Part shown: piece by piece, positions 988 to 4,840 of the stretch
Layout: each line of letters starts with the position of its first letter
Position numbering within the stretch: the stretch's first letter is position 1
NCBI GenBank assembly: GCA_016937995.1
Contig: JAFGVM010000050.1
Location: forward strand, 1 to 5,937
Reading direction: 5' to 3'
Length of the DNA stretch: 5,937 nucleotides
Origin: Candidatus Delongbacteria bacterium
Lineage (GTDB): Bacteria; UBA4055
Position numbers and translations under genes: made by a program
Notes under the pieces: model-generated
What the model was told of the DNA's origin: nothing
The model's database searches: none
The model's input: only the letters and a program-made list of their open reading frames with translations

Positions 988-1050
988 CGCACAACGCACA
1001 ACGAACAACGAACAACCCGAGACTCAAGACCCGAGACCCAAGACTTGAAC
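988..1050. repeat. Composite 7-bp tandem array of two unit families
   Basis: Two families are joined in the same 7-nt phase: four units of CGMACAA (988-1015, as two CGCACAA then two CGAACAA) followed by four units of the type CCGAGAC / TCAAGAC / CCCAAGAC-like variants (1017-1044), then a degenerate unit. The array crosses the 3' end of the peptidase gene: its TGA stop (1024-1026) and about its last seven codons are made of repeat sequence. Confidence 0.85.
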
Positions 1051-1674
1051 AATATGCTCATTAAAACCCTCCTCCCCAGCTTTCTTTACCAGTTCGGTCA
1101 AAGGTAATAATTCTGCGACATATCTGAATATATATGCATAATTCTCGTAACTTCCTCTTTCTTCATTTTTTATAATATCTATCATCTCATCTTTGGAAAG
1201 TACAAGCTTAGAATGTGAGAACTGGTCTGCAGCGAATAATGCAAAGCCTTCAAAGAACCAAACAGGTCCCATAGCTTCCTCATCTCCACCGAGAATTCTG
1301 ATATGCAGTCTGTGTGCAATTTCATGAGCCATTATCTTTGAATAGAATTCATCCTCAATTCCCTGCGGAAAGACCTTTTCATATATCTCAGGTGAAACAA
1401 TGGTCAGTATCCTTTGCTCTAATGCTCCACAGTATGTCTCCGGAAGTTCTAAGGTTGGATCAGATTCAGTAAGTTCAAGTAGCATTTTATCAAATTCTGA
1501 TTTCTGATCAAAGATCATTACTTTATCCATGAAAGGTTCTTTCACTAATTCTTCCCAACCGTACTTTTTCGAAAAAGTTCTTATCCTATCCTGAGCGTCT
1601 GTAAGATACTTTTCAAACTCAGCCTTTCTGGGTTCATAAGAAGCTGGTAATTTTAAATCAATTTTATTTTTCAT
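1024..1674 (-). CDS. Small HExxH zinc metallopeptidase-like protein (gluzincin type)
   Basis: Predicted 216-residue soluble protein with no signal peptide or membrane segment. Residues 117-121 are HEIAH, the zinc-binding and catalytic motif (His117, Glu118, His121). Twenty-one residues after the second His comes WFFEGFALFAAD with Glu142, the pattern of the third zinc ligand in gluzincins (peptidase MA-like clan). The N-terminal part is charged and helical and not recognisable to me. ATG at 1672-1674 is preferred over a TTG nine codons upstream because GAAGG (1683-1687) stands 8 nt before the ATG. The last residues (about QVLGLGS) are encoded by a heptad tandem repeat, so the C-terminus has probably been remodelled by repeat growth. 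The gene is flanked by repeat-filled gaps on both sides. A peptidase is likely; the substrate is unknown and a non-catalytic role is possible. Confidence 0.8.
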   Translation of the reverse strand: MKNKIDLKLPASYEPRKAEFEKYLTDAQDRIRTFSKKYGWEELVKEPFMDKVMIFDQKSEFDKMLLELTESDPTLELPETYCGALEQRILTIVSPEIYEKVFPQGIEDEFYSKIMAHEIAHRLHIRILGGDEEAMGPVWFFEGFALFAADQFSHSKLVLSKDEMIDIIKNEERGSYENYAYIFRYVAELLPLTELVKKAGEEGFNEHIVQVLGLGS

Positions 1675-1737
1675 AAATATAACCTTCAATATTGTTCTCA
1701 ATAAAAATGCAATATAGATATTTAAACTTTCTTATTC

Positions 1738-1772
1738 AAGTTAGAAGTTGTGGGTTGACAGTTGACAGAGGC
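1738..1772. repeat. 7-bp tandem array (AAGTTAG / GGGTTGA type)
   Basis: Five successive 7-nt units at 1738, 1745, 1752, 1759 and 1766 drift from AAGTTAG through AAGTTGT and GGGTTGA to CAGTTGA and CAGAGGC. The first 12 bases (1738-1749) recur exactly at 1976-1987, and 1746-1757 recurs inverted at 2015-2026. Confidence 0.75.
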
Positions 1773-1824
1773 GAATCTTTTGACTTACCTTCCCAGACAG
1801 CTACGGACACGACCAAATTATATT

Positions 1825-1858
1825 CCCCGTGAAAAACCGACGATCCTTTATCACGGGG
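1825..1858. repeat. Hairpin with 8-bp perfect stem
   Basis: CCCCGTGA (1825-1832) and TCACGGGG (1851-1858) are perfect inverted copies separated by 18 nt. A competing pairing CGATCC / GGATCG overlaps it (1841-1846 with 1857-1862). Neither strand has a long T run after the stem, so it is more likely a remnant of a dispersed palindromic element than a terminator. Confidence 0.6.
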
Positions 1859-1913
1859 ATCGCACTTTTACAGCCATAAATTTGCACAATATTAGGGGTA
1901 AAAAATATGGATC

Positions 1914-1947
1914 GTCTTGATTTTTTTGTTTCTTTTTGTATCAAGAC
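1914..1947. repeat. Inverted repeat around a T-rich loop
   Basis: GTCTTGAT (1914-1921) and ATCAAGAC (1940-1947) are perfect inverted copies flanking an 18-nt loop made almost only of T with G and C interruptions. The same kind of element seems familiar from intergenic DNA of Bacteroidetes-like genomes, but that is recollection, not a search result. Confidence 0.55.
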
Positions 1948-1971
1948 AAAAAGATAGAATCATGTACGCTT

Positions 1972-1992
1972 TTAGAAGTTAGAAGTTAGAGG
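1972..1992. repeat. 7-bp tandem array (TTAGAAG)
   Basis: Three units: TTAGAAG at 1972, TTAGAAG at 1979 and TTAGAGG at 1986. It is the same family and orientation as the start of the array at 1738. Confidence 0.75.
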
Positions 1993-2012
1993 AGAGATTA
2001 CCAAATATATAA

Positions 2013-2047
2013 CACAACCCACAACTCATACTTCATACCTTATACCC
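2013..2047. repeat. 7-bp tandem array (CACAACY / CATACYT)
   Basis: Five units in strict 7-nt phase at 2013, 2020, 2027, 2034 and 2041 change stepwise from CACAACC to CACAACT, CATACTT, CATACCT and TATACCC. The CAACCCACAACT part (2015-2026) is the inverted copy of 1746-1757. The array stops one base before the palindromic element at 2049. Confidence 0.75.
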
Positions 2048-2048
2048 C

Positions 2049-2108
2049 GTAAAAAGTCTTACATTTCTCCGATAAATCGGAGTAAACTAACCCAATGTGA
2101 CTTTTTAC
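2049..2108. repeat. Nested palindrome overlapping the DUF1684 stop codon
   Basis: The outer arms are GTAAAAAG (2049-2056) and CTTTTTAC (2101-2108), the middle arms ACATT (2061-2065) and AATGT (2094-2098), and the inner hairpin CTCCGAT (2067-2073) with ATCGGAG (2076-2082). The right arm contains the TAA stop (2105-2107) of the DUF1684 gene. On the minus strand the 3' arm holds a short T run, so it could act as a weak terminator for that gene; it equally resembles a small mobile palindromic element. Confidence 0.65.
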
Positions 2109-2641
2109 TTATATTTCTTTTCCCCTGCTGTAACAGCTACATTAAGCACATTCTCATCAGGTACCAACGGGCAGGAATATTTAGAATTATATGCACACCA
2201 TGGATTGTAAGCCAAATTGAAATCAAGTATCCATTTTTCACCAACTTTATCATGCTCTTCTTCCAGATCAAGATACCTGCCTGCACCATAAGAATCTATC
2301 GCTGTAGTTTTATCTTTATAAGGAATGAATAATCTGGTATCATTCACATCTGATTTATAAGCTATCAATTGGTTTTCTATATCATCTATCTTGAATTTGA
2401 ACTTACCGAATTTGATAAAGTGCCTGTCATTACCTTTAGAGTCTTTGATTATTATCTCAATTTTATCAGGGAATTCTATAAGCTCCAGCTCGAATCTGAA
2501 CTTCCCATCAACAGGAAAATAATTCAACCCCTTAAAACCTCCCCTTTCTTCTTCTGGAATAGGAGAATTGATCTCGTTCTTGAGGTAAGTGTTCTTGGCT
2601 ATTCGATCATTTTGAAGTTTATTATTGTATTCGTTAAACAT
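2105..2641 (-). CDS. DUF1684 domain-containing protein
   Basis: 178-residue protein matching the DUF1684 family over its whole length; the biochemical role of the family is not known to me. The N-terminal half has the family pattern SPIPEEERGGFKGLNYFPVD (residues 26-45). The C-terminal half carries the conserved core: FIPYKDKTTAIDSYGAGRYLD (about 105-125), then DFNLAYNPWCAYNSKYSCPL (140-159) and PDEN...VTAGEK near the end. Two cysteines (149, 157) sit in the conserved block. There is no signal peptide or lipobox, so this copy looks cytoplasmic, unlike family members with N-terminal lipoprotein signals. ATG at 2639-2641 follows AGGA (2647-2650) by 5 nt. A heptad array starts immediately upstream of that site, and the stop lies in a palindrome. 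Family call secure; function open. Confidence 0.9.
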   Translation of the reverse strand: MFNEYNNKLQNDRIAKNTYLKNEINSPIPEEERGGFKGLNYFPVDGKFRFELELIEFPDKIEIIIKDSKGNDRHFIKFGKFKFKIDDIENQLIAYKSDVNDTRLFIPYKDKTTAIDSYGAGRYLDLEEEHDKVGEKWILDFNLAYNPWCAYNSKYSCPLVPDENVLNVAVTAGEKKYK

Positions 2642-2646
2642 TTTAT

Positions 2647-2650
2647 TCCT
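2647..2650 (-). promoter_or_regulatory. Shine-Dalgarno of the DUF1684 gene, abutting a heptad array
   Basis: AGGA on the minus strand, 5 nt before the ATG. The 7-bp tandem array begins at the very next base (2651), so the 5' leader just upstream of the ribosome site is repeat DNA. Confidence 0.6.
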
Positions 2651-2692
2651 AGTGGTAAGTGGTTAGTATATAGTGGCAAGGGCTAAGTTTAC
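2651..2692. repeat. 7-bp tandem array (AGTGGTW)
   Basis: Six units in 7-nt phase from 2651: AGTGGTA, AGTGGTT, AGTATAT, AGTGGCA, AGGGCTA and AGTTTAC, with AG at the head of every unit. It lies in the 96-bp gap between the MscS and DUF1684 genes. Confidence 0.8.
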
Positions 2693-2714
2693 AACATCAT
2701 TTATAAATCCTTTT

Positions 2715-2731
2715 TGCCTTCGTGCCTTTGT
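2715..2731. repeat. Short 8-bp direct repeat
   Basis: TGCCTTCG (2715-2722) is followed directly by TGCCTTTG (2723-2730) and the beginning of a third unit. It ends 6 bp before the stop codon of the MscS-family gene (2738-2740). Confidence 0.5.
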
Positions 2732-2737
2732 GAGAAA

Positions 2738-3595
2738 TTAATCTTTTTTAACATCCTGCAAATCTTTTTTAAATACAACTGTCCTGTAAGGGAACGGTAT
2801 CTCGATGCCTTCTCTGTCAAATCTCTCTTTAACTGATTTTAAAAGATCACATTTAAGAACAAAGCCATCACCATAATTTGCTGTCCAGATATAAGCTTTC
2901 AAATTTACAGAAAAATCCGCAAGACCAACAACTCTAACCACCACTACAGGATCATTATTCTTTTTTTCCTGTTTTGTTCTTTTGTCAATGGTCAAAGGAT
3001 GTTTAAGCGCTTCTTCTGTAATGATATCTATAGCTTTGTCAATATTTGAATCATAACTTATCCCGAAAAGAACCTGTTTACGGATTTTTTCATCAGTAAT
3101 GGAACTGTTGATCAGAGTTTCTTCACTGATAATACTGTTAGGAATAATGATCCTTTGACTTTCCCAATTTCTAATAACTGTATGTCTCAAAGTTATCTCC
3201 TCAACGATCCCTTCTCTGGAATCCGGAAGCTCAACAATGTCACCTATCTTAAAAGGTTTAAAGATCAGCATAAAAATACCTGAAATTATATTCGTAAATG
3301 CTTTCTGTGACGCAAAACCGACAGCAACAGCAAGTATCCCGGCACTTGCAAAAAGAGCAGTACCTATAGATTTCAGGTATGGTATTTTGAAGAAAATAAA
3401 TATAATTGCTAAACTGTAAATTATAAAACTGATCGAATTCTTCAAAAAAGAAAAATTTGTCGGATCTGTTTTCAGTTTTTCAGAATATTTATTAATGAAC
3501 ACATTAATGATCTTTCTTAATATCAGTGTAACTATCAAAGCTATTGATAAGGTTATCACAACAAGAAGAATATAGTATAGATTTACATTATTCAT
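2738..3595 (-). CDS. mscS: MscS-family small-conductance mechanosensitive channel
   Basis: Inner-membrane channel subunit expected to form a heptamer that opens under membrane tension and releases solutes during hypo-osmotic shock. At 285 residues it is almost exactly the length of E. coli MscS (286). Membrane segments: TM1 about 6-30, TM2 about 50-72 and the pore-lining TM3 about 76-112, with Gly/Ala-rich packing (SAGILAVAVGFASQKAFTN) and the conserved exit KPFKIGDIV at 113-121. The beta domain follows, including the IPNSII signature (151-156), and the alpha/beta domain ends in EGIEIPFPYRTV (262-273). ATG at 3593-3595 follows AAGGA at about 6 nt. A charged lysine-rich loop (about 205-213) precedes the last domain. 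The gene lies 180 bp downstream of corA, separated by repeats, so cotranscription is uncertain. Confidence 0.93.
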   Translation of the reverse strand: MNNVNLYYILLVVITLSIALIVTLILRKIINVFINKYSEKLKTDPTNFSFLKNSISFIIYSLAIIFIFFKIPYLKSIGTALFASAGILAVAVGFASQKAFTNIISGIFMLIFKPFKIGDIVELPDSREGIVEEITLRHTVIRNWESQRIIIPNSIISEETLINSSITDEKIRKQVLFGISYDSNIDKAIDIITEEALKHPLTIDKRTKQEKKNNDPVVVVRVVGLADFSVNLKAYIWTANYGDGFVLKCDLLKSVKERFDREGIEIPFPYRTVVFKKDLQDVKKD

Positions 3596-3623
3596 TTATT
3601 TTCCTTTTTAATTTAATCCTTGT

Positions 3624-3653
3624 ATTCTATTTTGTCATCCTCGTGCTTGTAAC
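3624..3653 (-). promoter_or_regulatory. Possible mscS promoter with -35 inside the palindromic element
   Basis: On the minus strand TAGAAT (3624-3629) resembles a -10 box, with GTTACA (3648-3653) 18 nt upstream as a weak -35 (4 of 6 matches). The -35 would be supplied by the repeat element. Sequences like this arise easily by chance in AT-rich DNA. Confidence 0.22.
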
Positions 3654-3700
3654 GGGGATCCACATCTTTTATGGATTACCGGATCAAGTCCGATAATGAC
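3634..3700. repeat. 67-bp palindromic repeat element (MITE/REP-like)
   Basis: The ends GTCATCCTCG (3634-3643) and CGATAATGAC (3691-3700) are inverted copies at 8 of 10 positions. Inside are GGATCCA / TGGATTACC arms and two small hairpins, CGT(gcttgta)ACG and CGGA(tcaag)TCCG, giving a possible cloverleaf fold. Elements beginning GTCATCC and ending in (A)ATGAC with this layout are dispersed in many bacterial genomes. It is non-coding and lies in the leader of the mscS gene. Confidence 0.7.
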
Positions 3701-3709
3701 ATTTTATTT

Positions 3710-3732
3710 GGGGACGAAAAGAAATCGTCCCC
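3710..3732. repeat. Perfect 8-bp GC-rich hairpin downstream of corA
   Basis: GGGGACGA (3710-3717) pairs with TCGTCCCC (3725-3732) around a 7-nt loop of A and G. It is the strongest stem in the gap and lies about 43 nt after the corA stop on the minus strand. No T run follows it on that strand, so intrinsic termination is unproven; it could protect the corA mRNA 3' end or be a dispersed repeat. Confidence 0.6.
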
Positions 3733-3740
3733 TACATTTT

Positions 3741-3773
3741 AATTATCCATTGTAAATTATCAATTATCAATTG
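3741..3773. repeat. 7-bp tandem array (AATTATC)
   Basis: Units at 3741, 3748, 3755, 3762 and a partial at 3769: AATTATC, a diverged CATTGTA, then AATTATC twice and AATTG. It ends 2 nt before the corA stop codon (3776-3778). Confidence 0.75.
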
Positions 3774-3775
3774 CT

Positions 3776-4840
3776 TTAAAGCCATTTTTTCTTTTGAAAA
3801 TATTTCAACATTCCTAGAGCTACCACAACCATAACGCCAAGCATTATAAAATAGCTGTATTTGTAGTGAAGTTCTGGCAGTACATCAAAGTTTGTTCCGT
3901 AAATACCCGCAATGAAAGTCAAAGGTATGAATATCACAGAAAATACTGTAAGGAATTTCATAACATCATTAAGTTTACTGCTTATGGTAGTATGATAAAT
4001 GTTCAGCTGGTCCGAGAGTATCTCTCTGTAACTGTCAGACGATTCAGTTGCATGGTTTATATTATCCAGCAATTCTTTGAAATGAATATATGTATCATCT
4101 TCGATCAGATCTGACTCGATCTTTGACAAAGAAAGTATCATTTCTTTTGCAGGATTGATGTTCTTTCTCAAAAAATTAAGTTCTCTCTTGTATGTATTTA
4201 TCTGATCAATAATGCTTTGTGGTGGATCCTGAAGCAAATTCTCCTCGAGTGCTTCTATTTTTTCACCCAATAGACTGATTATATAGATATAGTTATCAAT
4301 CACAACATCAAGAAGTGCAAAAGCAAGATAATCAGTACCTGAATTCCTGATCCTTTTCTTTTGAGCTCTGATCCGCTCTCTTACAGGATCGAACACATCT
4401 CCTCTAAATTCCTGAAATGATATAAGTATGGTCTCTGTAATGACAAGGCTGAGATTCTCAACATGTATTTTTTCAGTCTTTTCATCCTGACGAAGCATTT
4501 TCATAGAAATATATATACAATTATCGTATTCCTGAACTGTAGGTCTTGCCTGTGTTTGCATAACATTGGATAAAATAAGTTTCTCCAGATCAAAATGTTT
4601 GGAAACATCCGCCATTAGTGCTTCATCATGAAGACCGTCTATGTTCAGCCAGGTCACAGAAGGTTTCTTTTTATATGGAACAACCTCTTCTATGGACTGT
4701 ATCACCTTTTCTTCTTTGTTCTCTGCATCAAAATCAATAACACGAAGTAAAACCGAATCGGTCTTCTTTTCACCTCTGAATTTAAGATCGTCCGGTCCAA
4801 GACCTATCTCATGCTTATGCTTCTTTACAAACCTAGGCAT
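3776..4840 (-). CDS. corA: CorA-family magnesium/cobalt transporter with GTN in place of GMN
   Basis: Inner-membrane divalent cation channel, expected to be a pentamer importing Mg2+ (also Co2+/Ni2+). Residues 1-290 form the cytoplasmic funnel, including the long stalk helix (about 250-300) leading into TM1 (about 293-314, ending TFIAGIYG) and TM2 (about 328-346). The C-terminal KKKWL fits the conserved CorA tail. The signature after TM1, normally Gly-Met-Asn, reads Gly-Thr-Asn at 315-317, followed by FDVLPELHYKYSY, the expected external loop. At 354 residues the length is typical. ATG at 4838-4840 follows AGAGGT (4847-4852) at 6 nt, and that site overlaps the stop of the upstream LapA-domain gene, so translation of the two is probably coupled. 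Family call is secure; ion selectivity is inferred. Confidence 0.92.
   Translation of the reverse strand: MPRFVKKHKHEIGLGPDDLKFRGEKKTDSVLLRVIDFDAENKEEKVIQSIEEVVPYKKKPSVTWLNIDGLHDEALMADVSKHFDLEKLILSNVMQTQARPTVQEYDNCIYISMKMLRQDEKTEKIHVENLSLVITETILISFQEFRGDVFDPVRERIRAQKKRIRNSGTDYLAFALLDVVIDNYIYIISLLGEKIEALEENLLQDPPQSIIDQINTYKRELNFLRKNINPAKEMILSLSKIESDLIEDDTYIHFKELLDNINHATESSDSYREILSDQLNIYHTTISSKLNDVMKFLTVFSVIFIPLTFIAGIYGTNFDVLPELHYKYSYFIMLGVMVVVALGMLKYFQKKKWL

Follow-up and report, generated by a model that had tools for sequence, protein, structure and literature searches.

Facing C-poor heptanucleotide arrays at gene ends in a Candidatus Delongbacteria contig and in other bacterial phyla

Introduction

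Tandem repeats of 7-nt units (heptads) have been noted piecemeal for decades, with slippage or quadruplex function as the usual explanations. Here, we describe the heptad arrays between the genes of a 5,937-nt stretch of Candidatus Delongbacteria DNA (GCA_016937995.1, contig JAFGVM010000050.1), called the window in the following, which is an entire contig (C94) of the draft genome G000 (2.75 Mb, 99 contigs), and compare them with arrays from other bacteria. A shared C-poor skeleton, a facing rule and an anchoring at stop codons across phyla make up a specific pattern that is not predicted by slippage alone. What was long a curiosity thereby becomes a question open to test, namely by what steps intergenic DNA arises, breaks and is filled in again.

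Closely related are the GGGAATC and GGGGA(C/T)T repeats of Xanthomonas and Nostoc, which are tandem 7-nt units (Rehm et al. 2015, PMC4692102). For GGGAATC in Xanthomonas, the G-rich strand is described as the coding strand up to 50 bp from, or overlapping, a stop codon, and the repeats lie antisense just upstream of open reading frames (ORFs); 70 and 75 convergent pairs are counted in two genomes, the repeats are rare between divergent ORFs and within genes, and they are interpreted as G-quadruplexes. The arrays described here are alike in that the C-poor, G-rich strand (C-poor strand: the strand with more G than C) is coding at stops and template at starts and that the arrays are convergent. 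Unlike the G-quadruplex class, most of them have no G3 run, as judged from the position weight matrix of the G000 arrays (few carry GGG), and they comprise many unit families. Since arrays without G3 runs still show the layout, quadruplex formation cannot be its general reason.

TAACTGA direct repeats are described by MacGregor (2015, PMC4679880) from Beggiatoaceae, Cyanobacteria and Bacteroidetes, mostly just upstream of start codons. They too are intergenic heptads in scattered phyla, and their other strand, AGTTATC, fits the skeleton reported below, RRTKRKR (R = A/G, K = G/T), at 6 of 7 positions. TAACTGA is, however, described as one fixed sequence mostly at starts, whereas the present arrays have many units, lie mostly at stops and are convergent; the exact TAACTGA unit does not occur in the window arrays. 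Heptanucleotides are the commonest class of long simple sequence repeats in most genomes, for which slippage at the 7-nt footprint of the polymerase was suggested (Mrazek 2007, according to PMC4679880 and PMC4692102). As far as these two reports go, neither this excess nor the heptanucleotides of the cyanobacterium Calothrix come with a skeleton, a pairing or a gene-end rule. Finally, REPINs, hairpin-forming pairs of repetitive extragenic palindromic (REP) sequences, are described by Bertels and Rainey (2011, PMC3116915) as inverted pairs with a spacer that are extragenic, dispersed and hairpin-forming, which is also seen here (the hairpins in Pinibacter). In contrast to REPINs, the arms are tandem heptads of many families without a conserved palindromic 16-mer core, the spacers have no set length or sequence, and no adjoining transposase was found. 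Among open-licence papers we found none that joins these types of heptad repeat or reports a common skeleton. We regard the arrays as a much wider variant of the known heptad repeats, and infer from comparisons between genomes how they might be built.

Results and discussion

Period 7 in the window and in the genome

Six arrays with a lag of 7 were detected in the window; the strand given is the C-poor strand, and the spacer of the one convergent pair is listed as well.

988-1044, minus: heptad array, GGGTCTC/GGGTCTT/GAGTCTC units, followed in register by GGTTGTT/CGTTGTG units
1738-1768, plus: heptad array, AGTTAGA AGTTGTG GGTTGAC AGTTGAC, directed outward from the start side of gene 1024-1701
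1972-1997, plus: heptad array, left arm of the convergent pair, unit TTAGAAG
1998-2012: spacer of 15 nt between the two arms
2013-2046, minus: heptad array, right arm of the convergent pair, GGTATGA AGTATGA GTTGTGG GTTGTG (minus strand)
2651-2692, plus: heptad array, AGTGGTA AGTGGTT AGTATAT AGTGGCA, directed outward from the start of the DUF1684 gene
3742-3772, minus: heptad array, AATTGAT AATTGAT AATTTAC AATGGAT AATT (minus strand)

An earlier, sequence-only reading of the window had placed six 7-bp arrays at these positions, correct within a few bases; of the array at 2651-2692 only 2651-2674 is above the threshold and the tail is degenerate. It had also described a strict 7-nt period with varying unit content and small steps between neighbouring units, all of which was borne out. 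Other lags gave 0-1 arrays each in the five gaps of the window, apart from lag 14, a multiple of 7, with three. Dinucleotide-shuffled gaps contained 0.12 arrays on average and two at most, and 0 of 300 shuffles reached six. Tandem Repeats Finder reported a period of 7 or 14 in 6 of 8 rows.

The same holds for a sample of 1.22 Mb of the G000 genome. Exact lag-7 intergenic runs numbered 38, compared with 0-3 at the other lags up to 24 (lags 14 and 21 excepted), and intergenic arrays with a score of at least 12 numbered 72 at lag 7 versus 0-11 at lags not divisible by 7. At a score of at least 9 there were 123 lag-7 arrays versus 15.6 in shuffles, so the density is not equalled in shuffled intergenic DNA. 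Period 7 is the single clearly enriched intergenic period of the sample, and neither outcome that the sequence-only reading had named as refuting it, a lack of period-7 excess or an equal density in shuffles, was seen; the arrays qualify as heptanucleotide simple sequence repeats.

Long near-perfect heptad arrays lie at contig ends (L017:1-82, L036:1-81, L065:1-33 and 11961-12047, L083:1-81, L087:1-23, L020:10449-10527). Given this position, the arrays probably break the assembly, and their actual lengths are probably underestimated. Tandem expansion is very probably at work in the arrays, since long perfect arrays at contig ends fit ongoing expansion.

One C-poor skeleton behind many units

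The six arrays had been taken for six unit families with changing content. Instead, both 1738-1768 and 2013-2046 combine a number of units within a single register, array 988-1044 changes from GTTGT- to GTCTC/T-type units with the register kept, and switches without loss of register are found inside other arrays as well. When 72 G000 arrays were aligned without supervision over register and strand, the result was 4.57 bits per array, compared with 3.22 ± 0.06 when columns were permuted within each unit. On the C-poor strand, of which C makes up 5-6%, the unit approximates RRTKRKR, and the six "families" of the window are wordings of this one skeleton.

A similar C-poor skeleton was found independently in Pinibacter (Bacteroidota; 4.98 versus 3.46 bits) and in Calothrix (Cyanobacteria; 3.81 versus 2.69 bits), and arrays of the C-poor heptad kind occur in several other phyla. 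Within the family of the window, four consecutive AGTN4 units were matched 152 times in G000, 95 in G002, 22 in G001, 7 in G007, 2 in G004 and not at all in the other eight members, the reversed control pattern also matching inside arrays (40 in G000). When 84,980 species genomes were scanned for six consecutive AGTN4 units, at least 119 stretches from many phyla were returned. This pattern selects for AGT, and the skeleton tests in the scan loci were limited to arrays other than the recruiting ones; these gave 3.33 bits versus 2.80 ± 0.08. The reversed-sequence control retains period 7 and tests the skeleton only. The 5'/3' polarity of unit identity gave no informative signal.

Neighbouring arrays face each other

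A scan with the position weight matrix alone was too strict and returned too few pairs, and a loose scan admitted coding noise (172 arrays versus 154 in the reversed control); pair counts are therefore based on the lag-7 detector, with period-7 arrays at most 150 nt apart counted as neighbours. Their C-poor strands converge: the ratio of convergent to divergent neighbours was 11:0 in G000, 24:0 in Calothrix, 28:0 (Pinibacter A), 24:1 and 21:3 in three Pinibacter species, 46:3 in 80 multi-phylum loci and 21:1 in 39 held-out loci, and neighbours with the same direction are a minority.

Period-8 arrays of Pinibacter (AAAATTTG, AATAACTG; L247-L265, L298-L317) follow the same facing rule. Hence, 7 is not a fixed step, contrary to the enzyme with a 7-nt step considered in the sequence-only reading. 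Period-8 pairs were not found in Calothrix at the threshold of the neighbour count. A different layout was seen in Clostridium sp. UBA701 (L195; G026:C3, C21), in which AGTGACA/AGTGGCA/AGTTACA arrays are clustered and, unlike the paired layout elsewhere, several are co-located in the same direction.

Arrays are anchored at gene ends

All six window arrays (6 of 6) are directed away from the adjoining gene. Array 988-1044 extends into the 3' end of gene 1024-1701 (minus strand) and runs outward from its stop, array 2013-2046 sits on the stop side of the DUF1684 gene, and array 3742-3772 begins 3 nt past the CorA stop codon (3776-3778). Arrays can recode gene ends as well as seemingly breaking assemblies; array DNA (1024-1050) encodes the final residues QVLGLGS of gene 1024-1701.

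With mechanical ORFs taken as genes, arrays close to a stop codon have a median edge position 2-3 nt upstream of the codon's end. Near stops the C-poor strand is the coding strand in 26:7 cases in G000, 32:3 in Pinibacter and 43:4 in Calothrix (101:14 in total), and also in the multi-phylum (75:20) and held-out loci (37:4). Ahead of start codons the C-poor strand is mainly the template (in total 55:19).

One might suppose that the arrays are fail-safe stop signals, in which a unit length that is no multiple of 3 brings stop codons into every frame after a gene. Three-frame stops within 28 nt are indeed found in 36-63% of C-poor strands versus 14-21% of shuffles, and periods 7 and 8 occur but 6 or 9 do not. 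However, stop trinucleotides are not enriched over column-permuted units (ratio 0.87-1.03), which refutes frame-cycling stop codons as the main driver; moreover, arrays upstream of starts are mostly on the template strand and units such as AGTCAGA, AGTGGTC and GGTTGTG contain no stop. We regard this function as hardly credible. Rho-utilisation sites, which would lie on the C-rich, G-poor strand, were also considered. They were rejected as a general explanation because Calothrix is array-rich and cyanobacteria are not known to have Rho.

Turnover, arm matching and folding

Three Pinibacter species that are about 88% identical were aligned to follow the turnover of the pairs. Arms are often retained while the spacer is exchanged: identical or nearly identical arms enclose spacers of 36, roughly 77 and roughly 20 nt whose sequences cannot be aligned, and at G024:C1:53.6 kb the arms are conserved almost letter for letter around a spacer that shares neither sequence nor length. 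The 77-nt spacer of one species has a partial copy (54 nt, 81%) elsewhere in its genome with the same arms, also adjoining stop codons. At 105.7 kb, nearly every unit of either arm is different in Pinibacter B from those in A and C, and B carries one more pair, from a different family, nested inside with the register kept; at other sites both arms and the spacer have changed family together. Of 33 pair loci of Pinibacter B whose flanks could be placed in C, 25 are also paired in C. Eight of these have clearly different arms, with the spacer replaced in seven, and 17 have similar arms, with the spacer replaced in three. Mirrored arm layers were seen in 34 pairs versus 9, and the arms within Pinibacter pairs match each other with a z of 6.9.

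Could the facing arrays be selected RNA hairpins, serving as bidirectional terminators or as mRNA 3' ends that keep their position as their sequence turns over? The start of arrays at stop codons, their lower density between divergent genes and the 25 of 33 loci that stay paired are in line with this, and the folding of Pinibacter pairs is much stronger than that of shuffled sequence (z -3.1 to -10.7). On the other hand, the window pair folds no better than its shuffles (z -0.7), other G000 pairs are weak and Calothrix is mixed; the arms in Calothrix and G000 match no better than chance, and convergent gaps of G000 are not enriched in arrays over tandem gaps (0.51 versus 0.82 per kb). In addition, some Pinibacter spacers contain an ordinary terminator-like hairpin of their own. 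Altogether, we consider hairpin function unlikely.

Plain replication slippage of neutral simple repeats by a polymerase favouring 7 nt would give the period-7 excess, the long perfect arrays at contig ends and units that differ by one or two bases. It predicts no strand rule, convergent pairs, stop-codon anchoring or shared skeleton, all four of which were found, and does not account for both Pinibacter arms changing in concert. The length-based copying of the sequence-only reading is supported as far as the period is concerned and fits the signs of in-place expansion; convergent pairs, starts at stop codons and matched arms with replaced spacers are not predicted by it. As a complete account slippage is disfavoured, and we rate it as quite unlikely.

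The sequence-only reading had further set such copying against the spread of one fixed sequence. This contrast holds in part only, as Pinibacter has about nine unit families whose copies are dispersed and show the unit variants in a recurring order. A further rival is REPIN-like non-autonomous elements moved by Y1 transposases (IS200-type or REP-associated tyrosine transposases). By the REPIN definition (PMC3116915) the geometry fits, with inverted arms, variable spacer, extragenic position and dispersed copies, and Y1_Tnp matches are present in 4 of 4 array-bearing members of the window's family versus 2 of 9 others. Yet three of the four are members of a single genus and the Y1 matches are mostly weak or partial, the Y1_Tnp gene of G000 (G000:C56:32618-32959) has no heptad array in its flanks, and there is no conserved palindromic REP core but many unit families and periods. 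Mobility of this kind is very unlikely in our view.

Two further features of Pinibacter pairs are an inverted element with CGCAGAT...ATCTGCG ends, which lies inside or replaces heptad pairs in some species (G024:C1 38.5, 64.1 and 113.7 kb), and a CACAGAAA(G)C motif that many spacers, unrelated in other respects, share close to one of their ends.

A proposed explanation

The analysis shows a 7-nt period with one shared skeleton, mosaics that stay in register, neighbouring arrays that face each other and an outward orientation from gene ends; for Pinibacter it also shows arm retention under spacer replacement and concerted arm switching. On this basis we tentatively propose, with somewhat less than even confidence, that the arrays are a widespread class of convergent intergenic repeats with 7-nt, sometimes 8-nt, units and a C-poor strand of the RRTKRKR type, which grow by tandem expansion and, through recombination, by copying from one arm or locus to another. 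The typical full form would lie between two genes and consist of two facing arrays with a short spacer, of which a single array would represent one half. Units would multiply in place by ordinary tandem expansion. At a broken or stalled centre, the two facing C-poor 3' ends would be extended by copying the partner arm or another locus. Only a C-poor 3' end with partial homology could prime this copying, with the complementary strand of the other array as template, and because of this requirement the arms would stay in register, share families and stay convergent. The centre would then be closed with unrelated sequence. Gene ends would mark the limit of loss tolerated by selection, which is why arrays would come to abut stop codons. 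Tandem expansion alone cannot yield the strand rule, the facing pairs or the concerted arms, and recombination-dependent copying is the simplest addition. Its main rivals are selected RNA hairpins, REPIN-like transposition and slippage combined with some strand bias.

Several points weigh against this proposal. Breaks and copying are steps that we infer and did not observe, and no enzyme for array copying was identified. Ku is absent from 13 of 13 genomes of the window's family. Arm-arm matching is strong in Pinibacter only and not above random in Calothrix or G000. When periods 7 and 8 were merged at a looser threshold, the facing rule in Pinibacter was less clean (26:3, 38:4 and 40:8); some Pinibacter stretches had been picked for AGT matches, but the contiguous blocks behind these counts were not picked by pair orientation. 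For relatives of the window genome the ratio of convergent to divergent neighbours was 4:3, albeit in a small set of loci with too few cases for a judgement.

Two candidate routes were rejected: Ku-type end joining in the window's family, in which 0 of 13 genomes carry Ku, and a telomerase-like reverse transcriptase, as RVT_1 was not found in the array-bearing G001, G002 and G007 (G001 and G002 being incomplete).

A broader version of the proposed copying would have many phyla share one strand-specific process, in which C-poor heptad arrays are built outward from gene boundaries by extension of facing 3' ends, new pairs being nested in old ones and the centre being swapped. The Xanthomonas G-quadruplex repeats, the TAACTGA repeats and the cyanobacterial heptanucleotide repeats would then be local dialects of one class of element. 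This generalisation is conceivable but doubtful.

Other features of the window

The genes that flank the arrays, all on the minus strand, and the palindromic repeats next to them are as follows.

903-983: imperfect palindrome CATTGCGAG...CTCGTAATGAC, adjoining array 988-1044
1024-1701, minus: flanking gene without Pfam match
2105-2641, minus: flanking gene, DUF1684 (Pfam)
2738-3595, minus: flanking gene, MscS-type mechanosensitive channel (Pfam)
3612-3705 and 3709-3735: two dispersed palindromic repeats, GTCATCCTCGTGC...ATAATGAC and GGGGACGA...TCGTCCCC, adjoining array 3742-3772
3776-4840, minus: flanking gene, CorA Mg2+ transporter (Pfam)

Further genes in the window encode a 2-hydroxyacid dehydrogenase (minus), a LapA-domain protein (minus) and a DUF748-like protein (plus). 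The palindromic repeats at 3612-3735 have many copies in G000, G001 and G002. The palindrome at 903-983 may, judging from its sequence, be an independent dispersed repeat; a similar palindrome, CATTGCGAG...CTCGCAATGAC, is present outside the window's family, in Pinibacter (G024:C1:51.1-51.5 kb).

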